NCBI RefSeq assembly: GCF_004010155.1
Contig: NZ_RRYH01000042.1
Location: forward strand, 1-39,531
Length of the DNA: 39,531 bases
Direction: 5' to 3'
From: Solirhodobacter olei
GTDB lineage: Bacteria; Pseudomonadota; Alphaproteobacteria; Rhodobacterales; Rhodobacteraceae
Position numbers and translations under genes: made by a program
The notes under the pieces: model-generated
Seen by the model: only the letters and a program-made list of their open reading frames with translations
What the model was told of the DNA's origin: nothing
The model's database searches: none
Shown here: one piece after another, positions 903 to 29,539 of the stretch
Position numbering within the stretch: position 1 is the stretch's first letter
Layout of the letters: every line of letters begins with the position of its first letter

Positions 903-1772
903 TCAGCCTGAAGCGGTCTGCAATCCAGGGGGGGTGCTCGTGGTTCCGGTCGAGGCGGAGCCTGAAGGCTCGGGCATCCCGGAGAGTGAAGCAGGACCGG
1001 TCGACGGTGCTGGGCCCTTTGTGGCGAAGTCGATCGCCTTGGAACGGGCCTCCAGTACTGTCGCCGGGACGGGTGCGCCGGGTGGGAAGGTGCCCTTGCC
1101 TGAGTCCTGCGGTGGCCTGACGATCACCTTGGTGCCGGAGTGGACCCGTTTGTAGAGATCAACGATGTCCTGATCGAAGAGGCGGATGCATCCGTCCGTC
1201 GTCGCGTGGCCGATCGTCCAGGGATAGGGCGTGCCGTGGATGCGGTAGAGCGTGTCTTTTCCGTTGCGGAAGAGATAGAGCGCCCGCGCGCCGAGTGGGT
1301 TCTGTAGCCCCCCGGGCATCCCATTGCGCCAGGGATCGTCGAGTTTCGGGGTGGTCTTCAGCATGTAGGGTGTCGGCGTCCAGCGCGGCCATTTCCGTTT
1401 GTAGGGGATCACCGCGTCGCCGGAGAAGCCGTAGCCCTGCTTGCCGACCGACACCTCATAGCGGATCGCCTTGTCATGGCCGAGTACGTAGTAGAGATGG
1501 AACATGCCGGGATCGACGATGATCGTCCCCACCGGCTGCGAGGTCCAGTAGGTGACCTCCACCCGCTTCTTCGCTTCTGAGAGATCTCGCGGCGGCACGG
1601 CCGGGATGGTCAGCTTGCCGTCGGGTTTCGCCCCATACATCGCGGCGAGGTCCGGTGAAAGCGTTTGCGTGGGCGGCGGTCTATGGCTCGCGCGGCTGAC
1701 CTGAAAGGGTGAGGCTCCGCAGGAGGCAAGGAGCAGGACAAGCGGCATTGCAAGGGGCAGTGGATATTTCAT
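903..1772 (-). CDS. L,D-transpeptidase (YkuD) lipoprotein
   Basis: Predicted cell-envelope L,D-transpeptidase of the YkuD family, which cross-links peptidoglycan or attaches proteins to it. The 289-residue product has a lipoprotein signal with lipobox LLAS-C (Cys18), so it should be membrane-anchored and face the periplasm. The YkuD domain spans about residues 72-220. His179 (IHGT) and the nucleophile Cys195 followed by Arg197 (TDGCIRL) are the catalytic set. Many members have Ser-His or Ser-Asn before the Gly-Cys, whereas this one has Thr-Asp. A Pro/Ser/Thr-rich tail follows about residue 222. The ATG at 1772 was chosen over an in-frame start 35 codons upstream because AAGGAG lies just before it and the lipobox then falls at the right distance. 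It stands alone, with a response-regulator relic upstream. Confidence 0.88.
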   Translation of the reverse strand: MKYPLPLAMPLVLLLASCGASPFQVSRASHRPPPTQTLSPDLAAMYGAKPDGKLTIPAVPPRDLSEAKKRVEVTYWTSQPVGTIIVDPGMFHLYYVLGHDKAIRYEVSVGKQGYGFSGDAVIPYKRKWPRWTPTPYMLKTTPKLDDPWRNGMPGGLQNPLGARALYLFRNGKDTLYRIHGTPYPWTIGHATTDGCIRLFDQDIVDLYKRVHSGTKVIVRPPQDSGKGTFPPGAPVPATVLEARSKAIDFATKGPAPSTGPASLSGMPEPSGSASTGTTSTPPGLQTASG

Positions 1773-1903
1773 CGGGTCTCCTTCTGAGGCCGGACACAAA
1801 GACTTCCGGCCAAACCGGACCGCTTGATGAACGGTCAGGCTTTGGATGGCCTTAAGGTGTCTCGCGTATCGGGACACCGACGCTGCTGTGGAGAAGAAGA
1901 TCG

Positions 1904-2023
1904 CGCATCCTGATCATCGAGGATCATGAAATGCTTGTGAACGGGCTGACGGGCGGGTTTCGGCTCCAAGGGCTGGCACCCGAGGCAGTCGGCACACTGG
2001 CGGGCACGCACACCATACGCTAG
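1904..2023 (+). pseudogene. response-regulator receiver remnant
   Basis: About 39 codons read RILIIEDHEMLVNGL… up to a stop at 2021-2023. This is the first beta strand, acidic pocket (Glu-Asp) and first helix of a CheY-like receiver domain of an OmpR-type regulator. There is no start codon or ribosome binding site, and the phosphoacceptor Asp and the whole output domain are missing. It is a relic of a two-component gene, probably truncated when the neighbouring block arrived. Confidence 0.6.
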
Positions 2024-2369
2024 CCATCGGCGCCTTCGATGCGTTGGCCCCCGACCGGATCCTGCCGGAAGGTTACGGCATCGATCCGCTCGCAGGCCCG
2101 CTATGCCGCTCCCAAATAATTGCCGCGGCGCAATCGGACCAAATCAACCCCCGAACTCTGGCGCCAGCAGGATGGATCTCGGGGTGCACAGCAGTTCCGG
2201 TGAATGTCCTGGCGCCCAGAGCTTGTCAGTCCGCCGCCCGAAACCGCCTCGTGAGGTTTGGGAGGGCATGCCTGACCCTCGACTTCCAGGATATCCCTAT
2301 TGTGTTCCGCGCGTCGGGCGCGGAACCCGGGGGGATTCGGACAAGCCGAACGCCCCCGGACACATAGGC
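2024..2369. other. gene-poor stretch before the ardC leader
   Basis: No gene supported. Several open frames cross the stretch, but none has a ribosome binding site or a recognisable product. It may contain further decayed sequence following the response-regulator relic. Confidence 0.35.
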
Positions 2370-2624
2370 GGTCGGGCTTCACCCGCCCGACCCTCTTCCC
2401 ATTTCGTCAGGGCCTCGCAGGTGCGAGGCCGTTAGGGGACCGCCGGTCCCCCGGATCAACTGGAAAATGCTGCGCCGCCTGCGGGGCCGTGTCCTCGCCC
2501 TGGCGGGCTGCGGGCCGCACCACCCCCTTGTCGGCTGGATTTTACAGTTGCCCGGTTCCCCCCCTGCCCTCGCCGGGAGGCAGTCCCCGGAAATGTGACG
2601 CGCCAAGGCGCGGCTCATTTCCGG
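2370..2624 (+). promoter_or_regulatory. multi-hairpin leader upstream of ardC
   Basis: Four clean inverted repeats lie in tandem. GGTCGGGC/GCCCGACC at 2370-2392 has a loop of 7. GGCCTCGCA/TGCGAGGCC at 2411-2430 has a loop of 2. GGGGACC/GGTCCCC at 2435-2451 has a loop of 3. CCGGAAATG…CATTTCCGG at 2587-2624 carries an inner CGCGCC-AA-GGCGCG stem across a symmetric 3x3 internal loop. None is followed by a T-run, so they do not look like ordinary terminators. Because the segment would enter the recipient as single strand (see oriT), a folded single-strand promoter of the kind known in plasmid leading regions is one possible role. Structured RNA control of ardC is another. The repeats are seen directly; their role is inference. 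Confidence 0.55.
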
Positions 2625-2628
2625 CGAC

Positions 2629-2669
2629 CGCTCCCAATTTTGGGGTTGGCGCCACTGACCAAGGGAGCG
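2629..2669 (+). promoter_or_regulatory. hairpin sequestering the ardC ribosome binding site
   Basis: CGCTCCC at 2629-2635 is exactly complementary to GGGAGCG at 2663-2669. The latter contains the GGGAG Shine-Dalgarno of ardC, whose ATG is at 2676. Pairing would hide the ribosome binding site in a 7-bp stem with a 27-base loop, suggesting translational control of ardC. Confidence 0.5.
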
Positions 2670-2675
2670 CCACAA

Positions 2676-3560
2676 ATGGCCGACAAGTTTGACGTTTACA
2701 GCCATGTTACCTCTGAGATCGTCGCCGCGATGGAAGCGGGCACGCCGCCGTGGCGGCAGCCGTGGACCGGCACGACCGGAGGGGCGGCTTTTCCGCTTCG
2801 CTCAAACGGCGAAGCGTACCGCGGGATAAACGTTGTCCTGCTTTGGCTGACGGCCGCGAGCCGTGGCTACAGCTCTGCCCATTGGTTCACCTTCAAACAG
2901 GCCCTCGATATGGGGGCACATGTCCGGAAGGGGGAGAAGTCCGCTACCGTCGTCAAATACGGCACCTTTGAAAAGGAAGACGAGGCCGGAGAAACGCGGG
3001 CTGTGCCCTACGCCAAGGCCTACCGCGTCTTCAATGCCGACCAGATCGATGGGCTTCATGAGGAATATCACGGGGTGAAGGGTGTTGCGCCGCAAGACTT
3101 CGGAACGGAGCCGAACGCGGAGCTTGATGCGTTCTTTGCCGCGACTGGCGCCACGATCGAGACTACGGAAGAACCGAGCGCCTACTACCACCCCGTGCGG
3201 GACATCATCCACATGCCGCCGATTGTCACCTTTGCCGATGCTGGTCGGTACTACGCCACCTTGGCGCATGAAGGATGCCACTGGACGGGCCACAAGAGCC
3301 GCCTTGACCGGCTGGAGCTGAACCGGGACCGGCAGACCTATGCCTTTGAGGAACTGGTGGCCGAGATTGGGGCGTGCATGGTCTGTGCGACCCTTGGCCT
3401 TGTCCCCGACTTTGCGCAGAGCGCGGCCTATGTCGAGGGCTGGCTTAATGCGCTGAAGGCTGACGCCCGCCTGATCTTCAAGGCCGCCTCTGAGGCGCAA
3501 AAGGCCTTGGACTACCTGACCGGCAAGGCTCGGCCGGAAGAGCAGAGGGCGGCCGCGTGA
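2676..3560 (+). CDS. ardC: ArdC-type antirestriction protein (ssDNA-binding, zincin-like)
   Basis: Protein of 294 residues. The N-terminal half (about 5-125) is the ArdC-like single-strand DNA-binding domain, with the typical opening DVYSHVTSEIVAAMEAG and the PWRQPW motif. The C-terminal half (about 150-280) is the polyvalent-protein metallopeptidase-like domain with HEGCH at 198-202 (HExxH type) and the downstream acidic stretch EELVAEIG (225-232) expected to supply the third metal ligand. ArdC of plasmid RSA protects incoming DNA from restriction and binds single strands. The ATG at 2676 is preceded by GGGAG; a longer in-frame start at 2595 lies inside a hairpin and was rejected. It is followed by a DUF3768 gene and lies about 1.4 kb from the candidate oriT on the leading side, which suits an early anti-defence role. 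Confidence 0.9.
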   Translation: MADKFDVYSHVTSEIVAAMEAGTPPWRQPWTGTTGGAAFPLRSNGEAYRGINVVLLWLTAASRGYSSAHWFTFKQALDMGAHVRKGEKSATVVKYGTFEKEDEAGETRAVPYAKAYRVFNADQIDGLHEEYHGVKGVAPQDFGTEPNAELDAFFAATGATIETTEEPSAYYHPVRDIIHMPPIVTFADAGRYYATLAHEGCHWTGHKSRLDRLELNRDRQTYAFEELVAEIGACMVCATLGLVPDFAQSAAYVEGWLNALKADARLIFKAASEAQKALDYLTGKARPEEQRAAA

Positions 3561-3597
3561 GCGGCCCCATCCTTCCCATCAGGTCAGGAACGCCACC

Positions 3598-3810
3598 ATG
3601 TCACACACCCCCGACAAAGCCCATTGCAATGAGATCACCGGGCACACTGGCTTCCGGCTGCGCCTCGGCCTCGGTCACCGGCACGAAACCCTGCCCGTTG
3701 AACTAATCCGGCATTCGTTGGCGCGGGACCCTGCGCAGCCTCGCCGCCTGTCAATGGGTCTGCATCACACATCTGACGCGCTACAACCTTGGCCTGTCTC
3801 AGTGTTCTGA
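3598..3810 (+). CDS. small hypothetical protein, possibly frameshifted
   Basis: Open frame of 70 codons with AGGAACGCC just before its ATG, 37 bases after ardC and in the same direction. The first half (MSHTPDKAHCNEITGHTGF…) is protein-like, but the end is Arg/Pro-rich. A different frame becomes more protein-like from about 3720 (…TRYNLGLSQCSDGDIFDAP…). This suggests an ancestral small gene broken by a frameshift. I do not recognise the family. Confidence 0.3.
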   Translation: MSHTPDKAHCNEITGHTGFRLRLGLGHRHETLPVELIRHSLARDPAQPRRLSMGLHHTSDALQPWPVSVF

Positions 3811-4048
3811 CGGCGACATCTTTGATGCGCCGGCCAGACCCTCGCCAACGCCAGCCACAGCGGCCGACTTTGGCGCGCATGCCAATGATCCCGCGAGATC
3901 GAGGCGGCCGCCCAGGCTGCTGCCCCAGACCAAAGACGACTTTGAAGCCATCGCGGAAATCGTCGGCTGCCAAACGCCGCAGGAGTGGACCTTGTCTCTC
4001 ATCAAGTCTGCCGAACGGTCCCTGCCGCCAGCCATGAAAGGAACAACC
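3811..4048. other. decayed or non-coding spacer between ardC and the DUF3768 gene
   Basis: Protein-like segments continue in more than one plus-strand frame (for example KDDFEAIAEIVG around 3930-3972 and TLSLIKSAERSLPPA just before 4034) without a single intact frame. This fits a degenerated gene between the two plasmid genes. Confidence 0.3.
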
Positions 4049-4435
4049 ATGTTCGACCCCCGGTTCCCAGACGAGCGGACCGAGCGGATTGCGACCCAGA
4101 ACGACGCCTTCCGCAGGGCCCTTGGTACGACTGTTTTCAAAGGAGAGGAGATCGACGGCAGGGTCTTGGTGACGCGGTCTGTGCTTGCGATGGGCTCACA
4201 GTTCCTCGCAGACGTGACCCAAGCAGTGAAGGATTTCGACACGTTCACCGACGACAACGATCCGATGGCAGAACATGACTTCGGTATTGTGGAGGTCTCC
4301 CATGCTGGCCTTCGCCAGAAGGCGTGCTGGACGATCGATCTTGACGACGAGGACTTTGCGCTAGGCTCGGCTTGCCCTGAAGACCCGCGTCAGACACGCC
4401 GCGTTCTCACGATCATGCTCCCCGAGGACTACTGA
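4049..4435 (+). CDS. DUF3768 domain protein
   Basis: Protein of 128 residues with the family features of DUF3768: an N-terminal helix RIATQNDAFRRAL, a central segment FDTFTDDNDPMAEHDFG, a core WTIDLDDEDF, and the terminal RVLTIMLPEDY. The function is unknown; the family is common on alphaproteobacterial plasmids next to ardC and mobilisation genes. The ATG at 4049 was chosen because AAAGGAA lies 8 bases upstream. Upstream in-frame starts at 3992 (TTG) and 4034 lack such a site, and the family usually begins close to the helix. By position it would be the first sizeable gene to enter a recipient. Confidence 0.8.
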   Translation: MFDPRFPDERTERIATQNDAFRRALGTTVFKGEEIDGRVLVTRSVLAMGSQFLADVTQAVKDFDTFTDDNDPMAEHDFGIVEVSHAGLRQKACWTIDLDDEDFALGSACPEDPRQTRRVLTIMLPEDY

Positions 4436-4515
4436 ACCCGACCTGGCCACGGCGCAGGCGTTGACCAAAAGGCCGTGCCCCCTTTCTGGGCCAAGGACCG
4501 GAAAGGGGCGAATTC

Positions 4516-4626
4516 ATGTCTCGCAAGCTTCTGGACGAGCAAAGGGCGGGAGACCCTGTGCCGACGGGGACGGGAGGCGTCTCGGCCAAGGTCTACCTCC
4601 CCCTTATCGCCCAGCGTTTCGCTTAG
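4516..4626 (+). CDS. small hypothetical protein, 36 residues
   Basis: ATG at 4516 preceded by GGAAAGGGG at good spacing, ending in TAG at 4624-4626. The product begins MSRKLLDEQRAGDPVP and ends in a short hydrophobic segment (KVYLPLIAQRFA). No family is recognised. The good ribosome binding site and the position between the DUF3768 gene and oriT make it plausible, but the length makes chance possible. Confidence 0.35.
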   Translation: MSRKLLDEQRAGDPVPTGTGGVSAKVYLPLIAQRFA

Positions 4627-4993
4627 GCGGTGACTGAGAGAAGGGGCGGTCCCCAAAGGGGGCGGCCCGTCCGGGAGCGTGGACGGATCATTCGAGAGAC
4701 CGGCAAGAACCATCACCATGTGCGGCGTTCTGCATGCGCCTGGCCCTTCGCGGGTTCCGTTTCAACGATGTTGTCCACCTCGGCGGGGAGGCTTCCATCC
4801 GCGCGCCGTGGCGCGATCTCGGGGGAGGCCGGGCAGAATCCTGAGGCCACGTCTGTTGGGTTTCTGCACGTTCCATTCCTCCCGTTTCTGAGCGCGAAGC
4901 TCTTTGCTTGGGGCTTGGTCTTGAGGTCCGTCGGCGAAGCCGTCGAGGAGCGCTGTGTGCCTGGACCGGCCGACATCGGATCGAAGAAATGAT
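4627..4993. other. non-coding region preceding oriT
   Basis: No gene supported. The segment lies between the small open frame and the candidate oriT and contains GC-rich short inverted repeats, for example around CGGCGAAGCCG near 4930. Relaxosome accessory sites would be expected here, but none can be assigned. Confidence 0.4.
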
Positions 4994-5028
4994 GGAGGCG
5001 CGTTTATACATTCGATTGCATCGAATGT
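4994..5028 (-). other. oriT: candidate oriT (MobQ / Ti-RSF1010-type nick region)
   Basis: On the minus strand a perfect 9-bp inverted repeat ACATTCGAT / ATCGAATGT (3-base loop, 5008-5028) is followed directly by ATAAACGCG-CCTCC (5007 down to 4994). An inverted repeat followed by a TAA-rich spacer and GCG|CC is the layout of RSF1010/R1162 oriT (TAAnTGCG|CCCT). The stretch GTATAA..GCG|CC also resembles the Ti-plasmid nick region. The predicted nick is on the minus strand between 4999 and 4998. It lies 23 bases before the ATG of the cognate MobA/MobL-type relaxase TraA, the usual position. Transfer 5' to 3' from this nick runs leftward, so ardC and the DUF3768 gene lead and traA enters last. The sequence match is from memory of those oriTs; nicking is inferred. 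Confidence 0.7.
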
Positions 5029-5050
5029 TTGAACCTCGTAGCGTTGGCGG

Positions 5051-8000
5051 ATGGCGGTCTATTATTTCGAAGCGAATGTTGTTTCCGCGAGCACCGGAGC
5101 AAGCGCCGTCTGGTCCGCCGCCTACCGCCATGCGACCTCGATGACCTCGCTGCAGAAGAGCGTGGAGCGCGACTACAGCCGGAAGGCTGATGAGCTCGTG
5201 CACGAGGAGATCATTCTTCCCCCAGACGCTCCGGCCTGGGCGCGGGAGCGGTATGGTTCGCCGGATGTGGCGCGCGCCTCGGAGCGGCTTTGGAATGACA
5301 TTGAAGGCCGGGAGGCCCAAAGCAGCCGGGCGCGGGTGGCGCAATTTGCGCGCTCGCTCACCATTGCGCTTCCGGTTGAACTGGGTCGCGCCGAGCGCGT
5401 GACCCTGATGCGGGAGTACCTGACCTCGACCTTCGCTGCTCGGGGCATGGTGGTGGATTGGGTGATCCACGACATTCCCGAGAACCCGCATGCCCATGTG
5501 ATGCTGTCACTGCGGCGACTGGAGGAGGAGGGCTGGGGTTTAAAGGAACGTGGCTGGAACGCGCGGGAGTTCCTGGTGGACTGGCGCCGGTCCTGGGCCG
5601 ACTTCGCCAATATGGCGCTGGAGCGCGCCGGGCATGAGGCCCGGATAGATCATCGCACGCTGGGCGAGCAGGGGATCGAACTCGCGCCGGAGAGCTTTAG
5701 CCCTTATGTGGCCGCTCATGCCGAAGCTGCCGGGGTTACCGCGCGGGGCAAGGAGCGGGCCGAGGCCGCGCGAATTGCCAACCGGGATTATCTCCTCGCC
5801 CGGCCGGAGCACATCCTGGTGGTTCTAAGCGCGAAGAAGACTGTCTTCTCGGCCGAGGACATTCGCAAGGAGCTGGCGAAGCGGCTCAATGTCACCATCG
5901 GCGGACAGGCCCATGACCTTGAGCCAGAGGCGTTTGGTGACGTGCTGGATAGGGTTCTGGGTGCGCGCGAGCTGGTGCAGATGGAGGAGGTCGGGCCGCG
6001 CGGCGAGGCGCTTTTCTCGACGCGGAGCCAGCAGCTTGTCGAGGCTCGGATGCTGCAGCAGGCGATCGAGCTTGCCGGCAAGACAGTGCCGCTGGCGGAA
6101 GGGCAGGGGGCCGAGGCTCTGTCCGAGAACCTGAACAAGGGTCAGGCGGCGGCGGTACGGGCGATGGTGGCGCCCGAGGCGCTGACCCTCGTCACAGGCC
6201 ATGCCGGCACTGGCAAGACCTTCGCCATCGCCGAGGCTGCGCGGGTTTGGCAGGAGCGCGGCTTCGAGGTTCTGGGCGGCGCGATCTCAGGCAAGGCTGC
6301 GCAGGAGCTTGATGGCATTGTGGGGTTGAAGGCTGCGTCCTTGGCCGCCTGGGAGAGCCGCTGGGCCAACGGCCAAGTGCCGGAGGGGCCGTTCGTCTTC
6401 TTCATGGACGAGGCCGGCATGGTCGGCAGCAACTCCTGGGCGCGGGTGCAGGCCCACATCGCCGACATGGGCGGCAAGCTGATCGCGGTTGGAGATGCCG
6501 AGCAGCTGCAGCCGGTCTCGGCCGGATCGGCCTTCAAGGTCATTCAGGACAAGATCGGTAGCGCGGTGATCGATTTTGTCCGGCGGCAGACGGATCCTCT
6601 GGACCGGCTCGCGACCCATGACCTCGCGATGGGTGGGAAGAGCGTGGGCAAGGCGCTCTGGCATTACCAGGCTCAGAAGAAGATCACCTTTCAGCCGTCC
6701 GCTTCTCATGCGGTCGAAGCCATCGTGGAGCATTACTTCACCGGCGATGCGTTGGAGAGCAGGATCGCGCTCGCTCATCGCAACGCGGATGTGGACGCGT
6801 TGAACCGCGAGCTCAGGGCCGAGGCGATCCGGTTGGGTGTGGTCGATCCGGAGAGCGTGCAGCAATACCCCCGGCCGCAAGCGGCGGACCTCCTGGAAGC
6901 AGCCGAGCCGCGGCCGCCGCTCGAACTGGGGCAGGGGGATCGGGTGCGCTTCACCCGGCCGGAGCGGGAGGCCTCGGTTCAGCGCTCCGCCTTCGGCACA
7001 GTGCTTGCCGCCACGCCCCCGCAGATCGTCGTGGCGGTGGACGGCCGGGATGATCCCGTGACCCTCGATCCGGCGAAGTTCCTGGATCTCGACTACGGCT
7101 ATGCGGCGACGATCCACAAGTCCCAGGGTATGACCGTGGATCGCGCCTTCGTCCTCGGCTCGGAGACGCTGAACCAGCATCTCCTCTACGTGGCTCTCTC
7201 TCGGCATCGCGATCATGTCGAACTGCATATGCCCTTCAGCAAGCGTGTGACGGGCATGGCCGACCTGATCGCCATCGGTCAGCGCAAGGGCTACATGACC
7301 CTGACAGATGGGCTGGACGGCTTCGATCCCAAGGCGCCGTTGCCGTCCTCGGTGCGCGCGCTCTTCGACCAGCTTCCCGAGCTGGCGAGGCGGGCCGATG
7401 TCGTGGCCTCGGCCGGGCCGTCCGAGCGCTCCTCCCAGGTCGATGACGTGGAGCTGGTGCAGGTCGCCACGCGCACGGCTGGCCTTCTCTCGGCCGACTT
7501 CGTTGCCGGGCAATCGCCGCTGACGGCCGAGGCGGGCGCGGCCGTGGCGGCGCCGCAGGCGGTGGTCGAGGATCTTCTGGCACACCGATCGGCCATCACG
7601 GCCGAGGACGTGGCCCGCGCGATCTCCCGCGAGGTCCGCGATCCCGAGACCTTCGTGCGGCTCTTCTTCGAAGCCATGGCGCATCCCGATCTCGTCGCTA
7701 TCGAGCGGGGCGGGAGCCGGGGCGACAAGCTCTACACCACCGCGGCGCAGGTTCTGGCCGAGGCCGCGCTTGCCGATCGCGGCGCGCGGCTGGCGATGCG
7801 TCCGGACGCCCGTGCCATCCCCTTCGCGGCCCGGGATTACAGCCTGAACGCGGCGCAGCGCGCGGCCCTGGGCGAGGTCTTGCAGGGCAGGAGGCTCAGT
7901 ATCCTCACCGGCGGGCCGGGCAGCGGCGTGACCTGGACGCTTGGGGCGATCCATCACGCCTACGCACGGGCGCAATGGGACGTGATCGGGGTGGCCGCGA

Positions 8001-9829
8001 CCGGGCGCGGGGTCGATGCCCTGCGCTCGATCGCCGGGCTCGATCCGATGACTGCGACGGCCTTTGCGGACCGGGTGTCCTCGGGCAGCCTTCACCTTGG
8101 CCCTCGGAGCGTCGTGCTGGTGGATCAGGCCGAGCGGCTTGGGGTGCGGGCGCTCGACAGGCTGGCTGAGGCGGTCGAGATCGCCGGCGCGCGGCTGGTG
8201 CTGGCGAGCAGTGCCCCGGATCAGGATCCGCTGGAGGCCGGGGCCGGGTTGCGGCTTCTCTCTTCGCGTCTTGGCGCAGCCGAGTTGACCGTCCTCGAGC
8301 GTCAGCGCGATCCGGCCGACCGGCTGGCGGCCGAGCTGCTTTTCGCCGGCGGGGCCGAGGCCCGCCAGGCCGTCGCCCATTACATCGCAGCGGGCCAGGT
8401 GGTGGCGGCCGAGCGCTCCGAACAGGCCATCACCGCGCTGGCCGAGGGTTTTGTCAGAGACCCCGCATCCGACAAGCTGGCGCTGGCGCTGTCCCGGGCG
8501 GATGCCACCGCGCTCAATCAGGCGATCCGCGCGGCTTTTCGGGCGGAGATCCCGGAAGCGGAGCGGCCCGCTGAGCAGCACTACGAACGTGGGGAAGGGC
8601 AGGGGGCTCTTGTGCTCGCGGCCGGGGACAAGATCAGCTTCGCGCGGGGCCTGTCCGAGGTCGGGCTACGCGCCGGGGCGCAGGCCGAGGTGATCGAAGC
8701 GAGGGAAGACGCCGCCATTGTTGGCATCGGGGCAGGGGAGGCGCGTCAGCTTCTGCGCCTGACCCCGGCCGATCTGGCGGGAGCCGATTACGCCTGGGCC
8801 ACCACGATCCACCGCGCGCCGAGCGAGGGCGTGGTTTCTGTCCATGTGCTCGCCGAAGGCGGGCTCGATCGCGCCTCGGCGCAGCGGGCCTTCACCCGCC
8901 ACACTGACAGCCTCGCGATCTACGTCCCGCGCGGGGAGGGGAGGGCGCAGGAGTATCTGTCCGATCTCGTGACGCGCGAGCGGCCGAGCCACAGCGCGTT
9001 CGACGCGATCACCGACAAGACCGACGCCATCCGCGCCGCCTTCGAGGCGTCCGAGAAGCCCGAACGGCGGCTGCTCTTCGAACCGGCGCGGCGCGCGGTG
9101 GGCGAGTTCCTGGAGCGGGTCGGGGCGCGCCTCGAGGGTGCGTTCGGAAGGGCCCAGGTTCATGAAGCGCCGGAGCGAACCCTCGACAGTCTCGCGCGGA
9201 CGCTCATCGACCGGGCGATGGTGCCTTATGACGCCGTGGACGATGCCTTTCGCCGGGATCCGGCCGTGTTCAGCAGGCTGGTAGACGTGGACGTGGCGGG
9301 ACGGGATCCGGGCGCCACCGAGCAGGGCCGCGATCACCAGATGCTTCTGCGGAAAGCCTTTGAACTCCGGGAGGGCCGGGCGCCGTCGAAGGAAGAGCGG
9401 GCCGCGCTCGATCGGGAGGCGGCCGTCCTGACCTCCCCGACCTTCTACCGGGGCCTGGTCGCACCGCTCTCTCCTGAGCAAAGGGCAGAGGTTCGCCGCC
9501 TGACCCGTGAGCTGGCCAAGGCCAGTCAGGAGATGGACTACAAACAGCTCCCACCGCGAACCCGCAACAGGTTTGCCGTGTATGTCGCGCTCGACGCAGC
9601 CGGCAAGCATGAAGCGCGCGACCTCTACGGCCGGATGCTGACCGAGACCTCGCGCTACATTCTGGCAGAGCTGGGCAAAGACCGCGGCGTGAAGTCCGAA
9701 ATGGTCCGCGACGTGATCGAACAGCGTAAGGAGCTTTCCATCGGCCGGGACGCTGCCCTCGGCCGCGGGCACGGCCGCACGCTGCAACAGCCCGACCACG
9801 ACAAGGGAGGGATTGATTTTGGCTTCTAG
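5051..9829 (+). CDS. traA: Ti-type conjugative relaxase-helicase TraA with duplicated helicase module
   Basis: Protein of 1592 residues that should nick oriT, stay bound to the 5' end and unwind the plasmid strand for transfer. Residues 1-220 form the MobA/MobL relaxase domain: MAVYYFEANVVSASTGASAV at the start, AAYR with Tyr25, and the metal-binding histidines in IHDIPENPHAHVML (His140, His147, His149). Residues 250-745 form a RecD/TraI-like helicase: Walker A GHAGTGKT (383-390), Walker B MDEAG (452-456), GDAEQLQPVSAG (481-492), TIHKSQGMTVD (687-697) and YVALSR (713-718). Residues 835-1295 repeat the whole module, but with Walker A GGPGSGVT (954-961, Lys replaced by Val) and DQAERLG for the Walker B box, so the copy is presumably ATPase-dead. 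The C-terminal 300 residues are helical and charged. The gene overlaps traF by 11 bases. Confidence 0.93.
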   Translation: MAVYYFEANVVSASTGASAVWSAAYRHATSMTSLQKSVERDYSRKADELVHEEIILPPDAPAWARERYGSPDVARASERLWNDIEGREAQSSRARVAQFARSLTIALPVELGRAERVTLMREYLTSTFAARGMVVDWVIHDIPENPHAHVMLSLRRLEEEGWGLKERGWNAREFLVDWRRSWADFANMALERAGHEARIDHRTLGEQGIELAPESFSPYVAAHAEAAGVTARGKERAEAARIANRDYLLARPEHILVVLSAKKTVFSAEDIRKELAKRLNVTIGGQAHDLEPEAFGDVLDRVLGARELVQMEEVGPRGEALFSTRSQQLVEARMLQQAIELAGKTVPLAEGQGAEALSENLNKGQAAAVRAMVAPEALTLVTGHAGTGKTFAIAEAARVWQERGFEVLGGAISGKAAQELDGIVGLKAASLAAWESRWANGQVPEGPFVFFMDEAGMVGSNSWARVQAHIADMGGKLIAVGDAEQLQPVSAGSAFKVIQDKIGSAVIDFVRRQTDPLDRLATHDLAMGGKSVGKALWHYQAQKKITFQPSASHAVEAIVEHYFTGDALESRIALAHRNADVDALNRELRAEAIRLGVVDPESVQQYPRPQAADLLEAAEPRPPLELGQGDRVRFTRPEREASVQRSAFGTVLAATPPQIVVAVDGRDDPVTLDPAKFLDLDYGYAATIHKSQGMTVDRAFVLGSETLNQHLLYVALSRHRDHVELHMPFSKRVTGMADLIAIGQRKGYMTLTDGLDGFDPKAPLPSSVRALFDQLPELARRADVVASAGPSERSSQVDDVELVQVATRTAGLLSADFVAGQSPLTAEAGAAVAAPQAVVEDLLAHRSAITAEDVARAISREVRDPETFVRLFFEAMAHPDLVAIERGGSRGDKLYTTAAQVLAEAALADRGARLAMRPDARAIPFAARDYSLNAAQRAALGEVLQGRRLSILTGGPGSGVTWTLGAIHHAYARAQWDVIGVAATGRGVDALRSIAGLDPMTATAFADRVSSGSLHLGPRSVVLVDQAERLGVRALDRLAEAVEIAGARLVLASSAPDQDPLEAGAGLRLLSSRLGAAELTVLERQRDPADRLAAELLFAGGAEARQAVAHYIAAGQVVAAERSEQAITALAEGFVRDPASDKLALALSRADATALNQAIRAAFRAEIPEAERPAEQHYERGEGQGALVLAAGDKISFARGLSEVGLRAGAQAEVIEAREDAAIVGIGAGEARQLLRLTPADLAGADYAWATTIHRAPSEGVVSVHVLAEGGLDRASAQRAFTRHTDSLAIYVPRGEGRAQEYLSDLVTRERPSHSAFDAITDKTDAIRAAFEASEKPERRLLFEPARRAVGEFLERVGARLEGAFGRAQVHEAPERTLDSLARTLIDRAMVPYDAVDDAFRRDPAVFSRLVDVDVAGRDPGATEQGRDHQMLLRKAFELREGRAPSKEERAALDREAAVLTSPTFYRGLVAPLSPEQRAEVRRLTRELAKASQEMDYKQLPPRTRNRFAVYVALDAAGKHEARDLYGRMLTETSRYILAELGKDRGVKSEMVRDVIEQRKELSIGRDAALGRGHGRTLQQPDHDKGGIDFGF

Positions 9830-10202
9830 GCTCGCGCTCGGCCTCGGCGGCGCCATTTTCGCGCTGGCGCTCGCTCTCGGCCTGGCCGGCTGGCGCTTCA
9901 ATCTGACGCCTTCCGTCCGCGGGCTGATCTTCCGGCCAATTACCGCGCAGATAGCTGTGGGTCGCTACGTGGCGTTCTGCCTGCCCTGGACCTCGGCCGA
10001 GCTGCCCGAGAGCAGCCACACGGATGTGCCGGTATGTACCGCTGACCACCCGAACCGGGTGAAGCTCATCAAGCGCGTCGGCTTCATTGAGCCGGACGGT
10101 CGCCTTTACGTCGAAGGCAGCAACCCGCGCTCATATGATAGCCGCTACTACGGGCCGATCCCGAGAAGCGCCGTCACGACCGTTATGGCGAGGGTCTGGT
10201 AG
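9819..10202 (+). CDS. traF: TraF-type S26 signal-peptidase-like protein, short form
   Basis: Protein of 127 residues related to conjugative TraF, the S26 protease that in RP4/Ti-type systems matures and cyclises the pilin. An N-terminal membrane segment (about 3-24) is followed by FNLTPSVRGLI, in which the Ser corresponds to the family nucleophile. VKLIKRV would supply the catalytic Lys, and the C-terminal box NPRSYDSRYYGPIP is diagnostic. Typical TraF proteins have about 170-180 residues. Here the loop between the Lys box and the C-terminal box is nearly absent, so the protein may be minimal or degenerate. A TTG start at 9819 was chosen: AGGGAGG lies 8 bases upstream and the start overlaps the end of traA, indicating coupling. 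No traB follows. Confidence 0.75.
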   Translation: MASRLALGLGGAIFALALALGLAGWRFNLTPSVRGLIFRPITAQIAVGRYVAFCLPWTSAELPESSHTDVPVCTADHPNRVKLIKRVGFIEPDGRLYVEGSNPRSYDSRYYGPIPRSAVTTVMARVW

Positions 10203-10562
10203 GGCAGGCCGTGCAATGTGACGAGCATGCCTTTTGGTCCATGGATGGCTCTTTATCGAGGCAGGTGGTCTCTTCTGCCAGACCCATACGCGCTTGGTAT
10301 TCTTTCGTGGAAGCACTCAACGTTCGTGGCCTGGCCGGTCTTGTCTCGTCCGTCGGGTTGTGGATGGGCGCCCGCAAACTTCGAGCCGGATCATAGGCCA
10401 AGGCGCTGCATGTACGAGTTGGACACGGCTCTTTCGATGCGGGCCAGAGCGGAGCCGAGGCGAGGTGGGACTCGGTGCGCGATTATATGTGTAGTCTGTT
10501 CACAACAGCCTCCCGCGCTATCTAGACTGCAAGCCTGACGAACACAGCGAAGAGGTTTGGCC
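10203..10562. other. gene-poor stretch between traF and ggt
   Basis: No gene supported. Open frames on both strands are short, overlap and lack ribosome binding sites. The right boundary of the mobilisation block must lie here; I see no attachment-site repeat or insertion-sequence end. Confidence 0.4.
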
Positions 10563-12323
10563 ATGCGCCGTGTCGCACTCCTCCTATCGGCGCTTGCCTT
10601 CATTGGGTCCGGAGCATTGGTGAACGCAAAGGACGGCCCGCCTGCCGCTCTGCCCGATCTCGGGGCCGTGCACGCAACGCGCGCCGAGCTCGCCGCGGCG
10701 CAGCCTGTGACCGCAAAGCATGCGATGGTGGTCACTGCCCAGCATCTGGCAACGGAGATCGGTGTCGATATCCTGAAGAAGGGGGGTAATGCGGTGGATG
10801 CGGCAGTTGCGGTCGGCTATGCGCTTGCCGTCGTTCACCCTTGCTGTGGCAATATCGGCGGGGGCGGGTTCATGACCCTGCATCTGGCCGATGGCCGGAA
10901 CCTGTTTCTTGATTTTCGGGAGAAGGCACCGCTCGCAGCGACGACGACCATGTTCCAAGACGCAAACGGAAACGTGGTGCCGGAGCGAAGCCGGTCCTCC
11001 TGGCTCGCGATCGGCGTGCCCGGGACTGTCATGGGGCTCGACGAAGCCTTGACCACCTATGGCACGATGAGCCGCGCGGAAGTGATGGCTCCGGCGATCG
11101 CGCTGGCTCGGAAAGGTTTCGTGCTGAATGCTTCCGATGCCCATATCCTCGCGCTCCGGGCCAAAGTCTTTGCCAGCCAGCCCAATGTTGCTGCGATCTT
11201 TCTGCATCCCGACGGCAAGCCCTATTCGGCGGGGGAACGCCTCGTTCAGCCGGCGCTGGCCAAGACGCTCGATCTGATCGCCAGGAAGGGCCCCGACGCG
11301 TTCTACAAGGGCCCAATCGCCCGGGCCATTGTCGCGGCCAGCCAGCAAGGCGGTGGGCTATTTACGATGAAGGATTTTGCGGACTATTCCGCGCCATGGA
11401 GCGCGCCGGTCACTTGCCGCTATCACGGCTACCAGGTCGTCTCGACCCCGCCGCCGAGTTCCGGCGGCACGACAGTTTGCGAAATCCTCCAGATCGTCGC
11501 GCCCTATCCCTTCGCGAAGTGGGGCTTCGGCTCTACGCAAGTTACGCATTATCTGGTTGAAGCGGAGCGCTGCGCTTTCGCCGACCGAAATACTTATCTC
11601 GGCGATCCGGCCTTCGTTACAAACCCGATTGCGAAGCTCCTGTCGGCAGACCACGCCGCGAAGATCCGGAGTGAGATTGCACCGGACAGGGCCACGCCGT
11701 CGTCAGAGGTGAAAGGCAGCCTCGGTGCCGACGAGGGCCAGCACACCACGCAGTATTCGATCGTCGACGCGCAGGGTAACGCGGTCTCGGTCACCTATAC
11801 GATCAACTTCTTCTTCGGCACCGGCAAGATCGCCGGAGACACCGGCTTCTTCCTGAACAACGAGATGGACGATTTCACATCGAAGCCCGGCGTGGCCAAT
11901 GCCTTCGGTCTGGTGCAGGGAAAGACCAACGAGATCCAGCCAGGCAAGCGCCCGCTTAGCTCCATGACGCCAACGATCGTGCTCAAGAGCGGCAAGCTCT
12001 TCATGGTTACGGGGAGCCCCGGCGGGTCGACGATCATCTCGACCACGCTGGAAAGCATCCTCAACGTCGTCGATTTCGGGATGAACATGCAGCAGGCGGT
12101 CGATGCACCGCGCCTGCATCACCAGTGGCTACCCGATATCGTGACAGTCGAGCCCGGGTATCTGAGCCCGAAGGTCAAGGTGGCACTCGAAGGGATGGGA
12201 TACACGTTCAGGGTGCACTCCCCCTGGGGAGCAGACGAAGCGATCCTGCGCAATCCTGCGACGAGTCTTCTAGAAGGCGCTAACGACAACCGCCGACCGT
12301 CGGGACTGGCAGCCGGCTATTGA
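10563..12323 (+). CDS. ggt: gamma-glutamyltransferase, periplasmic
   Basis: Protein of 586 residues. Gamma-glutamyltransferases cleave the gamma-glutamyl bond of glutathione and related compounds, or transfer the glutamyl group. It begins with a Sec signal peptide (MRRVALLLSALAFIGSGALV, cleavage probably after VNA). It keeps the family blocks GGNAVDAAVAVGYAL, IGGGGFM, DFREKAP and GVPGTVMG in the large subunit. The autocatalytic nucleophile is Thr395 in GQHTTQYSIVD, where the precursor is cut into two subunits. The small subunit shows FLNNEMDDF, KRPLSSMTPTIV, TGSPGGS and DAPRLHHQWLPD, all very close to the E. coli enzyme. The ATG at 10563 follows GAAGAGG. It appears to be a single-gene unit, with about 430 bases before the convergent TRAP operon. 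Confidence 0.95.
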   Translation: MRRVALLLSALAFIGSGALVNAKDGPPAALPDLGAVHATRAELAAAQPVTAKHAMVVTAQHLATEIGVDILKKGGNAVDAAVAVGYALAVVHPCCGNIGGGGFMTLHLADGRNLFLDFREKAPLAATTTMFQDANGNVVPERSRSSWLAIGVPGTVMGLDEALTTYGTMSRAEVMAPAIALARKGFVLNASDAHILALRAKVFASQPNVAAIFLHPDGKPYSAGERLVQPALAKTLDLIARKGPDAFYKGPIARAIVAASQQGGGLFTMKDFADYSAPWSAPVTCRYHGYQVVSTPPPSSGGTTVCEILQIVAPYPFAKWGFGSTQVTHYLVEAERCAFADRNTYLGDPAFVTNPIAKLLSADHAAKIRSEIAPDRATPSSEVKGSLGADEGQHTTQYSIVDAQGNAVSVTYTINFFFGTGKIAGDTGFFLNNEMDDFTSKPGVANAFGLVQGKTNEIQPGKRPLSSMTPTIVLKSGKLFMVTGSPGGSTIISTTLESILNVVDFGMNMQQAVDAPRLHHQWLPDIVTVEPGYLSPKVKVALEGMGYTFRVHSPWGADEAILRNPATSLLEGANDNRRPSGLAAGY

Positions 12324-12704
12324 GTGCCGGGCTTGCCAAAGGCGAACCCCGGGTTGCCAGAAAGCCGGGCGACGTAATGCAGAGAGTGGCGTTTTGCGAG
12401 CCCGAGTCCCCTTTACCCCAAGGTCATCGGTCTATCCGAAGCGCCGAAAGATTGGACTCGTGTATCAAACGCACCAACCTAACCCCGCGGAATTCCGGTG
12501 CGTTCGGCTAGATTGGAGGTTGTGCGGCCCCAGCAGAGACTGTCATTCACAGCCGCCCATTGGGAGTGGGGCTGAGTCCGCACAATTTAATTTAGCACGA
12601 CGGTATCGCGTTACCTAAGACAATTGACAGTGCGTTGCAGAACCTGCGCCGAGACCTGATCCGCAACGGCTGCGACGGGCTGGAGCATGTGAGGTCGAAA
12701 CAAT
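12324..12704. other. intergenic region between the convergent ggt and TRAP operon
   Basis: No gene supported. The last third contains a fragment reading NLRRDLIRNGCDGLEHV in one plus-strand frame, which looks protein-like but cannot be assigned. It may be the end of a lost mobile gene. Confidence 0.35.
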
Positions 12705-12732
12705 TCAGGCGAGGCCCGAGGACCTCGCCTGA
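12705..12732 (-). terminator. stem-loop terminator of the TRAP operon
   Basis: Perfect 10-bp inverted repeat TCAGGCGAGG / CCTCGCCTGA with an 8-base loop, 21 bases beyond the dctP stop codon. On the plus-strand side it is followed by TCGTTTT and on the minus side by ATTGTTTC, so it may work for the TRAP operon and partly in the other direction for ggt. Confidence 0.7.
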
Positions 12733-12753
12733 TCGTTTTGGTATTGCCCCGCG

Positions 12754-13764
12754 TTATTTGCGAAGCTTGGCCAGATCGGCCTCGATCGTCTTCACTTCCT
12801 GCTGGTGGCCAGCGGCAGCGAACTTCTCCATCTCCGGCTTGGCGAGATCGCGCATCTTGGCGAGCTGTGCGTCGCTGACGACGGTGACCTGCATCCCGTG
12901 CTTCTTCAGGAAGGTCAGCGCGGTCTTCTGGGCCGAGCGGCTGTAGTCACGCTCGAATTTCCGCGAGTCGACGGCGGCCTCGGTGATCGCCTTGTGCTCG
13001 TCCGGCGTCAGCTTGTCCCACCACGCCTTCGAGGCCAGCATGACCCAGGGGCTGTAGACGTGCTTGGTGAGCGAGAGATACTTCTGCACCTCGTAGAACT
13101 TGCTGGATTCGATCGTGTTGACCGGGTTTTCCTGTCCGTCGACGGTATGCGTCTCGAGCGCGGTGAAGAGCTCGGAGAAGGACATCGGCACGGCGTTTGC
13201 ACCCAGACGATCAAACATGTCGATATACATCGGGTTTTGCATCACGCGCAGCTTGATGCCCTTCAGGTCGGCCACGGTCTTGATCGGGCGAACCGAGTTC
13301 GTCAGGTTACGGAACCCGTTCTCCCAGTAGACGATGCCGACCAGGCCCTTGGCCTGCAGCGCGTTCAGCAGCTTCTGCCCGAACGGCCCATCAAGGATCG
13401 TGTCGGCTTCCTTGGTGTTGGAGAACAGGAACGGCAGGTCATAGACGCCGAAATCGCTGTCGATCCCGACCAGGGTGGCCGTGGAGCCGACCATCATCTC
13501 CTGCGCGCCGCCGATCAGAGCGTTCTGCATCTGGATGTCGCTACCGAGGCTGGCGTTGCCGAAGCCCTTCACATGCAGCTTGCCGCCGGTACGCTTCGCC
13601 AGATCCTTGGCGAAGAAGTCCACCGCCTTGCCCTGGTTGCTGTCGGCCGAGAGGCCGTAGCCGAAGCGGATGATCCGCGAGTGATAGTCGGCTGCCTGCG
13701 ATGTTACCGCGGTCATCGCGGCGAGGCCGAGGCCCAGCATGATCGTACGCATCTGTTTCTTCAT
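12754..13764 (-). CDS. dctP: TRAP transporter substrate-binding protein (DctP)
   Basis: Periplasmic receptor of 336 residues for a tripartite ATP-independent transporter. It has a signal peptide with two starting Lys residues and cleavage near SQA-ADY (about residue 24), followed by the DctP fold. The conserved carboxylate-binding region KGIKLRVMQNPMYIDMFDRLGANAVPMS and the block ELFTALETHTVDGQENPVNTI are clear. The ATG at 13764 follows AGAGGAGGAAGAA. The gene is last in the operon after dctM (24 bases apart), and a strong stem-loop follows. The link to gluconokinase and a LacI regulator suggests a sugar-acid ligand such as gluconate; that is inference. Confidence 0.93.
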   Translation of the reverse strand: MKKQMRTIMLGLGLAAMTAVTSQAADYHSRIIRFGYGLSADSNQGKAVDFFAKDLAKRTGGKLHVKGFGNASLGSDIQMQNALIGGAQEMMVGSTATLVGIDSDFGVYDLPFLFSNTKEADTILDGPFGQKLLNALQAKGLVGIVYWENGFRNLTNSVRPIKTVADLKGIKLRVMQNPMYIDMFDRLGANAVPMSFSELFTALETHTVDGQENPVNTIESSKFYEVQKYLSLTKHVYSPWVMLASKAWWDKLTPDEHKAITEAAVDSRKFERDYSRSAQKTALTFLKKHGMQVTVVSDAQLAKMRDLAKPEMEKFAAAGHQQEVKTIEADLAKLRK

Positions 13765-23226: not shown

Positions 23227-24000
23227 ATGAGCGAACGCGAACTGAATAATGGCAGCATAATTCCAGAGGATACCGTAATCGCGTCGGATGCCTTCTTGGG
23301 ATCCAGGGTCACGGTAGCCGGACCCGGCGTCGAGATTCACGCGAATGCGCGTGTTGATGCTGCGGTGGTCATCGGAGAGGGCGTGACGATTGGCCAGGGT
23401 GCATGGGTGCGGGCTGGGGCAGTTGTGCTACGGTCGGTCCCGCCCAATTCCATCGTCGAAGGAAATCCGGCACAGGTTGTCGGTTATAGCAGCGCGTTTT
23501 CTGCCGTGGCGGATGAACGCCCAAGTCCGAAGCTGGTCGACATCCATAATTTTCAGCACCTCGCACGGCCCAGCCGTGTGCCGTTGGGAGTCGGTGAAGG
23601 AGCGCTTTACCTGATGCGGCGCATTGTCGACGCGCGCGGCGGATTGACTGTGGGCGAGGTGCCAACCGAGGTGCCCTTCGCTCCCACCCGCTATTTTGTG
23701 GTTTTCGACGTGCCCTCCGAAGAGCTTCGAGGTGAACACGCTCACAAGCATTGCCATCAGTTCCTGATCTGCCTGCACGGTTCCTGCCGTGTTTTGCTGG
23801 ACGATGGAGAACGGCGCTGCGAGGTGACGCTGGACCGTCCCGACATGGGTGTGTTCATGCCGGCGATGGTGTGGGGCACCCAGTATCGCTACAGTGCCGA
23901 CGCCGTTCTACTCGTTTTTGCGTCGCGTCCATACGAAAGCGAAGATTACCTGCGTACCTACGATAGATTTTTGGAAGAGATAAAAAGGCGGACCAAATGA
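23227..24000 (+). CDS. acyltransferase-dTDP-sugar 3,4-ketoisomerase fusion (WxcM/FdtD-like)
   Basis: Protein of 257 residues with two parts. Residues about 10-90 are a short left-handed beta-helix (repeats around [22 protein letters not shown], closing with [17 protein letters not shown]). Residues about 105-250 are a cupin of the FdtA/QdtA/WxcM family with RGEHAHK (168-174), whose histidines are the proton-shuttling residues in FdtA. Such enzymes turn dTDP-4-keto-6-deoxyglucose into the 3-keto isomer, the step before amination. Full WxcM/FdtD proteins carry a complete acetyltransferase of about 150 residues; here the central helix turns are missing, so that half may be inactive. The gene overlaps the aminotransferase by 4 bases (ATGA). 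Confidence 0.85.
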
Positions 24001-25094
24001 AAGTACCCTTCCTCGACCTTCGCACCGCCTATCTCGAACTCAAGGACGAGATCGACGCAGCCGTCGCGCGAGTGCTCGACTCCGGCTGGTATATCCTCGG
24101 CCCCGAGGTCGAGGCGTTCGAGGCTGACTGGGCGGCCTACTGCGGGGCGAATTACGCGGTGGGAGTGGGTAATGGGCTGGATGCGCTCATCTTAGCGCTA
24201 CGTGCGCTGGAAGTCGGCCCGGGGGACGAGGTGATTGTCCCTTCAAACACCTATATTGCCACATGGCTTGCAGTGACGGCTGTTGGTGCTAGCCCTGTCC
24301 CGGTTGAACCCGACCCGGCGACTCATAATATCGACCCCGCCCGCATCGCCGCCGCAATCACGTCGGCTACGAAAGTCCTGCTGCCAGTCCACCTGTATGG
24401 GCAACCCACTGATCTCGACCCGATACTTGCACTTGCGCGTCAGTATGGACTGTTTGTGGTCGAGGATGCCGCGCAAGCCCATGGCGCAAGTTACAAGGGG
24501 AAGCGCATCGGCGCGCATGGTGATGTTGTCTGCTGGAGCTTTTACCCCGGCAAGAACCTTGGCGCTTTGGGCGATGGCGGTGCTGTGACAACCGACAACG
24601 ATGAACTAGCAGACCGCATTCGCATTTTGCGAAACTACGGAAGCCGTGTGAAATATGTGAACGATGTACGCGGGAGCAATTCGCGCTTAGACCCGATTCA
24701 TGCGGCGGTGTTGCGGGTCAAGCTGCGTCATCTTGACGACTGGACCAAACGCCGCCGTTCTGTCGCTTCACGTTACGCCGAGGGCCTCCCTGGGACCAGA
24801 CTGATCCTGCCGCATGTGCCCGACTGGGCGGAGCCGGCTTGGCACCTGTATGTTGTACGCAGTAATCAGCGCGACACGTTACAAAGAAAATTGACTAAAG
24901 CGGGTGCAGGTACGCTGATCCACTATCCGATACCGCCGCACATGCAGGGCGCCTATGGAGACACAGACTTTGGTCCCTTGGCTATCGCAGAGAGCCTCGC
25001 GAACACGGTATTGAGCCTCCCGATGGGGCCGCAACTGACAACTCAAGAGGTGGAATTTATTATTGAATGCTGCATCAATGCCGAAGAAATCTAG
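23997..25094 (+). CDS. DegT-family sugar 3-aminotransferase (FdtB/QdtB-like)
   Basis: PLP-dependent aminotransferase of 365 residues. The start [18 protein letters not shown] is typical, the PLP-binding Asp lies in [11 protein letters not shown] (Asp157), and the Schiff-base Lys186 is in [15 protein letters not shown]. Enzymes of this subgroup add an amino group to the 3-keto sugar made by FdtA-type isomerases, yielding dTDP-3-amino-3,6-dideoxyhexose. The ATGA overlap with the isomerase gene supports this. No rmlA/rmlB is in the window, so the dTDP-4-keto-6-deoxyglucose must come from genes elsewhere. It ends at the border of an insertion-sequence graveyard. Confidence 0.88.
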
Positions 25095-25099
25095 CTACC

Positions 25100-25430
25100 T
25101 TAATCCGGAGTTCGCGGCATAGGATTTGCAAGGTTCGCTTCCAGAACCGCGTGACTGAGGAGAGGATTTCTTCGGTAGATTTGACATCAATAAGGCCTCG
25201 GTTCTTCGATGTGGGCCAAGAGGAGGGGCAAGATGCCGGCATCCAACTCGGCGACAGTGCGGTGGACGCCGCGCTGCAGATGCTTCCGTGTCAATTCGTC
25301 GAACCAGCGCTAGACTTGGTTCTTTCAAGAGGCCGAGTTCTGTGCGAAATGCACCTTTCAGGGCACTTGGCGTGACGGCCATCACTTGATAACCAAGGTT
25401 TGATCGGACGTCATGGTGCATGACGATGGG
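25100..25430 (-). pseudogene. IS630-family transposase remnant, C-terminal part
   Basis: On the minus strand a frame reads NSAS*KNQV*RWFDELTRKH followed by LQRGVHRTVAELDAGI. This corresponds to the IS630 catalytic C-terminus (TPTSASWLNQVERWFAELTRK…), with stops at the Trp and Glu positions. A third stop follows EEPRPY, and the end is at 25100-25102. No N-terminal half is present. It is a dead fragment abutting the aminotransferase gene. Confidence 0.7.
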
Positions 25431-25854
25431 CAAAACGAAGGCCTCGGGACGTCAAAATATCTCGGCCGTATGTGTAGCGCATCGGGAGTAGATACCACCA
25501 TCGAAGCCGCGTCGACCCGATGACTCACTGCGTAAGACGGCTGGATCAATGCCTCATGGTACATAACTTCAATCGCCAGGTCTCCGAACTGCAGGCCATT
25601 ATCCCCGTCCCAAACGGCTACAGCTTGCTCGGCATACCCGTGACTGAAGACGCGGGATAGGTCTGTCTGGGAAAAGGGGCATCTCGGCTATTAGTCGAAT
25701 TGCCCGTGTATTGATGTCCGCACTGGTGCAAGTATTTTTTTGAAAGACATCAGCGTGTGATCGGGTGCGAATGTCTAAGAGGCCTCTCGATGTGACGTTT
25801 GACACAGCCGTGGACAGGCATGCGATACGCGGCCTGAAGGCGGAGCCCGGCAAT
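25431..25854. other. non-coding debris between IS remnants
   Basis: No gene supported. The stretch lies between the IS630 and IS110 relics; short protein-like fragments occur in different frames (for example ELQAIIPVPNGYSLLGIPVTE near 25590-25650, plus strand) but without any intact frame or recognisable family. Confidence 0.4.
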
Positions 25855-26760
25855 GCATGTTTACATGCGCGAAGGGGCGCCGGAGATCAGAAGAGCGCGG
25901 ATACCACGCTGCCCAACCGAGCCTTGCCACTCGTCGACTGCTGCTTCGGCACGAACCCGAGCCAAGAGACAAAGTCCGGTCCGCGCCGAAAGCTCTCCAG
26001 TACTGGTTCGAATGACGCGATCGCGATCACGAGTCCCAGCCCGCATGGTTTGCGCCCGTCGAACCAGGTCGGCCTCTTGGCCGCGCATCTCGTCTTCTGA
26101 TCAAGTTCGGCAACCCGAGCATTCAGGCCTTTAATCTACACCAGATACATCTGGCCCGGTTCGCGGACCTTTACGGGCATCGACGTGTCGCCATCTTCAA
26201 TCGTATCCGCAAGGCGTTTGAGCTGCGCTGTCCCCGTCGCCGCGACCAATCCACGCTCAGCGAGGTGTCCGCGCAAGGCTTTGAAGATCTGGGTACGTTG
26301 GCCGACGAACATCTGCAGCGCGGGAAACAGCATCGCCCGGACTCGCTGTGCTTCCGTCTCTAGCGCGACGAAGCGCATGGTAGGACGCAAACATCTGCGC
26401 CTTCAAACGATGCCACGCATCGACTGATCGCTGCGCAACTAGCTCGAAACCTGGACAATCGTATCAGCATCCGCCGAAACATTTTTTCTGGCGCTATACG
26501 AACGGCTTCACATAGATCGTCGGGATCAGCCGCACATCGTGTCCAAACTTCTCAAACTCGAGGTCCCAACCATGCGCTGTGGCGCAAGCCTCAATGGCGA
26601 TAGCGCATTTGGATTTCTTTGCAACTAAGGCCCGCGCCCGACCCAGAAAAAGCTTCTTGCGAAACACGACGAACCCGTCCTCTCGCCCGATACACAACTG
26701 GAAACCGCGCTTTGTCAGATAGTAACTCCCGACACGGATGCCCTCTCCTACAGTGATGGT
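25855..26760 (-). pseudogene. IS110-family transposase, multiply frameshifted
   Basis: Minus-strand pieces in several frames assemble into an IS110-type transposase. The N-terminal part (26756 down to 26494) reads GFVVFRKKLFLGRARALVAK, KSKCAIAIEACATAHGW and DVRLIPTIYVKPFV, then stops. The middle (26390-26136) reads MRFVALETEAQRVRAMLF and RGHLAERGLVAATGTAQLKR. The C-terminal part (about 26130-25860) reads FEPVLESFRRGPDFVSWLGF, STSGKARLGS and IRALLISGAPSRM, switching frame at least twice. The order and spacing match the family, so this is one decayed gene, not several small ones. Confidence 0.8.
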
Positions 26761-29467: not shown

Positions 29468-29539
29468 CGAATCTTGAAGTTCGTCATTAGAAGTCCTGGT
29501 TCCTCCGCAGTTGAGTTCCGCTGAGAACTGATCTGGATA

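Follow-up and report, generated by a model that had tools for sequence, protein, structure and literature searches.

A candidate Ti-type origin of transfer upstream of the traA relaxase gene of Solirhodobacter olei

Organization of the traA Region

The window, that is, the whole stretch of DNA analysed here (39,531 nucleotides of Solirhodobacter olei contig NZ_RRYH01000042.1), contains on its plus strand a traA gene (5051..9829) that encodes a protein of 1592 aa. Based on matches to TIGR02768, MobA_MobL and AAA_30, the gene product was annotated as a MOBQ relaxase of the Ti type with a tandem pair of helicase units: a MobA_MobL domain and two AAA_30 stretches were detected, and the score against TIGR02768 (TraA_Ti) was 770 bits, above the curated cut-off of 590.45. 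Against the NCBIfam MobQ family relaxase model NF041496 the protein scored 182.8 bits, which is under the curated cut-off of 200. Among solved structures, the TraA sequence matches those of NES (4HT4; E-value, 2.1e-19) and MobA (2NS6; E-value, 2.7e-6). TraA carries Y25 and the three-histidine motif HDIPENPHAH at position 140. The passages of PMC6856555 that deal with MobA of R1162 name Y25, H112, H120, H122 and two glutamates, and window TraA shares the tyrosine and the three histidines with that protein.

traA is followed by a short traF-like reading frame (9813..10202, plus strand), which matches positions 130–165 of the 171 in TraF_Ti with 50.2 bits (cut-off, 100.25); as only the C-terminal end of TraF is matched, the frame may be a remnant. 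Upstream of traA lies a gene for an ArdC-type anti-restriction protein (2595..3560, plus strand; PF08401 and PF18818). An ArdC gene in the same orientation is also found at locus L010, one of the close relatives described below, and tblastn detected none in the stretches of two others, L014 and L012. The window frames scanned on this side of the putative oriT comprise ArdC and DUF3768 genes and gave no Tra matches, so that traC, traD and traG, present on the far side of the oriT in L051 and L055, were not found there. Such divergent traC/traD/traG genes belong to the layout of conjugative members and not to that of the oriT as such. The distal part of the window (23227–39438) is occupied by an extended series of genes for polysaccharides and sugar nucleotides with a G–C content of about 51% (measured at 26001–39000), as against 68% in traA; an integrase-core (rve) frame is found within this series at 29604–30551.

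Inverted Repeat and Predicted Nick Site

The plus strand reads GGAGGCGCGTTTATACATTCGATTGCATCGAATGT at 4994–5028. On the minus strand, the order is ACATTCGAT-GCA-ATCGAATGT-ATAAACGCG|CCTCC, where the vertical bar marks the predicted cut. The inverted repeat (5008..5028, minus strand), a putative relaxase-binding hairpin that lies to the 5' side of the predicted nick in the strand to be cut, consists of two 9-bp arms (5008–5016 and 5020–5028) that are complementary at 9/9 positions and enclose the 3-base loop TGC. An imperfect extension of the repeat spans 5002–5034, with a complementarity of 87%. The adjacent nick core ATAAACGCG|CCTCC (4994..5007, minus strand) has its predicted cut at 4999/4998, placed by alignment. 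The initial annotation, which proposed an oriT next to traA, had thus described both the perfect repeat and its minus-strand continuation correctly; the distance between the repeat and the traA ATG at 5051, given there as 23 bases, was counted to be 22.

Taken on its own, the repeat is only mildly unusual. The window contains five perfect repeats with arms of 9 bp or more and a loop of up to 8 bases, where 20 Markov-simulated windows averaged 1.1, and in the 615-bp stretch at 4436–5050 such a repeat arose in 2.7% of 2000 simulations. A loose repeat-plus-core pattern has two matches in the window (the site itself and 2411), against an average of 0.6 in the simulated windows (n = 20). As single-stranded DNA, the region folds with −9 kcal/mol (z, −2.75), and 4 of 200 shuffled sequences fold equally well or better. 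Rfam models at gathering thresholds gave no matches in the window. The weight of the oriT case lies on the comparison with relatives and not on any single-sequence statistic.

Conservation in Close Relatives

The scan of genome contigs gave eight loci, three of which (L010, L014 and L012) matched from residue 1 of the relaxase and had upstream DNA; L013 and L015 start inside the relaxase, so their upstream regions are not covered, and L017, judged by its reading frame and the length of its contig, is the same contig as L019. The TraA proteins of the three loci share 77% (L010, best segment), 56% (L014) and 36% (L012) identity with that of the window. The initial annotation had proposed to look for the repeat and core upstream of close traA homologues, and the three loci, the closest ones obtained with upstream DNA, all show them: an inverted repeat and a G|C core lie at −52 (L010), −53 (L014) and −51 (L012) relative to traA, compared with −52 in the window.

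The arms of the repeats are ACATTTAAT/ATTGAATGT in L010, AGATTTTTC/GAAAAATCT in L014 and GTATGAGAT/ATCTCATAC in L012. They were compared with those of the window by position, because automatic DNA alignment misplaced them, the loops differing in length by one base. Two of the three relatives have wholly different arms that still pair perfectly. Over the nine pairs in the four sequences, 35 of the 36 cells are Watson–Crick and one is G–T, and both sides have changed at seven of the nine pairs. As the covarying arms illustrate, the hairpin can vary next to an unchanged cut region.

Survey of Regions Upstream of Related Relaxase Genes

A blastn search with 665 bp around the site gave no match among plasmids, and conservation was therefore tested through relaxase homology. 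The order-wide relaxase-domain search matched 58 of 390 genomes, and the family search matched 7 of 198. In total, 43 regions were collected: 30 order-wide loci (the best 30 places, window included), three from the family search, three from the genome-contig scan and seven plasmid loci, the last being six of 1454 matching plasmid records and L051, which had been picked by an oriT query. After removal of four regions of insufficient length and one duplicate, 38 were evaluable. Outside this count stand L003 and L009 (genome G029), L007 and L008 (relaxase part unmatched), L011, L013, L015, L016 and L017.

A score of at least 13 was reached by 35 of the 38 evaluable upstream regions (window included), as against 4 of 380 shuffled sequences; without the window and the oriT-picked L051, the count is 33 of 36. 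Under a stricter rule, matches were found in 26 of the 43 regions, in 3 of 860 shuffled sequences and in 2 of 420 other real segments. In all 26 strict matches the repeat begins 8–10 bases from the core start, where 7–14 were permitted, and over the set the distance between the site and traA spans −51 to −187. The top score of L004 lies at another place and that of L041 is tied with another place; the canonical site is present in both. Three regions missed the score of 13, namely L040, which has the core without a good repeat, and L044 and L046, in which no convincing site was seen. G029, whose giant TraA is also a relative, gave no such site within the 12 kb examined. When 16 bases of the window site were searched for with up to one mismatch allowed, none of four related genomes had a match; these include one genome of the same genus, which is also without a TraA match.

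In the 36 aligned cores, T at −8, A at −7 and G at −3 are each present in 36/36 and G at −1 in 35/36; these four positions belonged to the search pattern, which was drawn from the same loci where they were later counted, and their near-invariance is thus partly built in. The cores comprise 16 distinct 16-base sequences, so that many of the loci are near copies. The +1 position, a column outside the search pattern, is C in all 36 cores. The oriT case is carried by the covariation of the arms and by this unconstrained +1 column.

Comparison with Known Origins of Transfer

In front of traA, on the strand predicted to be cleaved, the candidate site shows what marks the oriTs of Ti-type TraA relaxases: a G|C core of the TATAA type with an inverted repeat to its 5' side. 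A close parallel is a Ti-type plasmid of Shinella (NZ_OZ000536.1), which has a Ti/rhizobial oriT between traA and traCDG (MOBQ2). In this plasmid, the cleaved strand likewise carries the repeat to the 5' side of the core, a GTATAA..GCG|CC core is located upstream of traA, and the order core–repeat–traA and the polarity are the same; the sequence GGG|CGCAATTATAC and its repeat are found 96 bases before traA. The two sites differ at −5/−4, which are TT in Shinella and AC in the window, and their arms are unlike. The Shinella traC, traD and traG genes adjoin the oriT on its other side, whereas they were not found in the window, and the Shinella TraA is about 1100 aa long (CDS 4104–7406), compared with 1592 aa in the window.

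The RSF1010/IncQ1-type oriT (MOBQ1) of IncQ1 plasmid NZ_CP040071.1 similarly has a repeat followed by TAAGTGCG|CCCT, with G and C at the cut position. The core had been likened in the initial annotation to both families. The likeness holds for the Ti-type TraA sites and is poor for RSF1010: by direct comparison, the window matches 8 of the 12 positions of the consensus TAAGTGCGCCCT given in the pertinent passages of PMC3832669. The motif TAAnTGCG quoted in the initial annotation has T at −4; the window has C, as do 24 of the 36 aligned cores. Furthermore, RSF1010 MobA has a primase and not a helicase, according to the relevant part of PMC4981023, whereas window TraA has helicase units.

A MOBQ consensus, NWACCNNTAAGTGCGCCCTYNN, and predicted oriTs of Paracoccus are also presented in the portions of PMC3832669 that concern such sites. 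The predicted oriTs of pMARC3 and pMOS6 described there are of the same general kind and come from a related bacterial group. The Paracoccus sequence ATAAGTGGGCACTTCGTG from this source matches loci such as L030 and L036, whose relaxase frames, at 437 and 439 aa, are short, unlike the 1592-aa frame of the window. As far as those portions of PMC3832669 go, the Paracoccus sites differ from that of the window in having G at −2 and T at −4, and pMARC3 and pMOS6 in having a divergent mobC.

Searched titles and the beginnings of abstracts contained no description of the window core as an oriT and listed no oriT for the relaxase branch of the window; a text search for the core letters gave listed matches that, judging by their titles, concern other subjects. 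On sequence comparison, the class of the putative site is that of Ti-type (TraA_Ti, MOBQ) oriTs and not the RSF1010 type, and it is very probably an oriT of known kind with a slightly unusual cut sequence.

Other Transfer Functions in the Genome

The genome assembly consists of 122 contigs that are not assignable to replicons. The 23-base sequence of the nick core and proximal arm, with up to three mismatches allowed, has one match in this genome, the site itself. Within the window, the core is accompanied by 9-bp arms here alone; the matches at 5168 and 11424 have 5-bp arms and lie inside other reading frames. The search for a better oriT elsewhere, also suggested by the initial annotation, thus brought up only these two weaker places in the window and no near copy of the site in the other contigs. 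Searches with three Pfam families found window TraA as the sole relaxase of the genome, and RepC was not found.

No channel or coupling gene was found among the window reading frames scanned. A VirB-like secretion cluster is located on contig C45 of the same genome (L061 11555–18662; L062 23–5025), which encodes a T2SSE-family ATPase and VirB4-like, VirB6/TrbL-like and VirB10/TrbI-like proteins, as well as a coupling protein with a TraB-like neighbour. The two C45 stretches scanned contain no second oriT with arms of at least 6 bp. The window ends overlap neither each other nor the examined end of C45.

Proposed Mode of Transfer and Alternative Explanations

Comparison with relatives strongly supports the candidate oriT, and it is highly probable that the site is the origin of transfer belonging to the adjacent TraA, with the cut placed by alignment. 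TraA would bind the hairpin formed by the minus-strand inverted repeat, and Tyr25 would cut this strand at 4999/4998 (G and C, respectively), 9 bases past the repeat. By analogy with MOBQ relaxases, TraA would stay on the 5' end at 4998. The minus strand would then enter the recipient 5' first, the ArdC side (below 4998) leading and traA coming last. ArdC would thus lie on the side that reaches the recipient first, and the transferred strand would be the template of ArdC, details that are consistent with the proposed polarity and not proof of it. The channel would be supplied from elsewhere, e.g., by the VirB-like cluster and coupling protein of C45. As the repeat is only 22 bases before traA, binding of TraA may also repress traA, as in the case of pIP501, whose TraA binds and represses its promoter–oriT region according to the passages on that plasmid in PMC4981023; the same source also describes cleavage at a GpC dinucleotide of the nic site. 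If so placed, the site offers a base-exact predicted nick and a transfer polarity for this relaxase branch, and a simple rule for finding oriTs in this bacterial family, namely the core plus pairing arms upstream of traA.

It might be argued that the site is a decayed oriT, formerly functional and now unused, the coupling and channel genes having been lost; this possibility falls within the oriT reading and is not exclusive of it. The lack of traC, traD and traG among the scanned frames next to traA and the traF-like frame that matches only the C-terminal end of TraF are in line with such decay. Nevertheless, the repeat is perfect, the core retains the bases common to the family, traA is open over 1592 aa, and genes for a coupling protein and channel exist on C45, so that loss of function appears unlikely. 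Alternatively, the repeat might be a mere operator or 5'-leader hairpin controlling traA, with the GCG|CC incidental. A location 22 bases before the start codon is a possible operator place, but the arms vary freely without loss of pairing or of their spacing from the core, whereas the operator of a single regulator would keep its sequence. Moreover, the core-to-repeat spacing is held at 8–10 in the 26 strict matches although the sites lie anywhere from −51 to −187 relative to traA, and no sigma-70-type promoter was recognised in 4440–5200, a search that covered this promoter type alone. Pure regulation of traA is hence very improbable. A chance repeat beside a GC-rich motif, to which the five repeats of the window and the mean of 0.6 loose matches per simulated window might point, is hardly credible given the conserved position, the compensating arm changes in relatives and the rarity with which shuffled controls reach the score.

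Relaxase Subclade and Tandem Helicase Units

In a midpoint-rooted tree of 42 relaxase domains, the candidate oriT's relaxase, window TraA, groups with those of L010, L014, L012 and L019 (support, 97/90), L012 and L019 being long branches; without L019, the support for the window with L010, L014 and L012 is 98/89. The same four loci (window, L010, L014 and L012) have A at −5, a position that the search pattern did not constrain; none of the 32 other cores has this base there. The whole G|CC motif was also considered as a mark of the window clade and was rejected, as the column counts support A at −5 alone.

Behind the relaxase domain, the TraA proteins of the window clade have two to four helicase units arranged in tandem. 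The TraA gene of L010 is cut by the contig end, and in the three −5 A loci where the gene is visible far enough, two to four units were likewise found. The frame lengths are 1592 aa (window), 2402 aa (L014, 4001–11209) and, for L012 with its four helicase units, more than 2673 aa (4001–12019); in L063, a full copy of L019, the TraA frame reaches 3895 aa (1634–13321). Tandem helicase arrays in TraA were not described in the literature titles and beginnings of abstracts searched, nor in the relevant passages of the sources consulted. It is conceivable, with chances a little short of even, that these loci represent a distinct Rhodobacteraceae MOBQ branch with giant relaxases of two to four helicase units and a core of its own (A/T at −5, C at −4). 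If true, the array of helicases would have changed in step with the nick core, and the outcome would be a transfer system of separate specificity. The link between A at −5 and multiple helicase units is the more interesting lead, and the large TraA proteins are worth a study of their own.

In L011 and L016, the two remaining loci of the genome-contig scan, both from one MAG, GTATAATCGTG|CC is accompanied by a repeat of 11 bp, 55 bases upstream of the relaxase. Both of these giant traA copies contain an in-frame stop in the relaxase region (about 1500–2300), and the oriT-like site upstream is intact.
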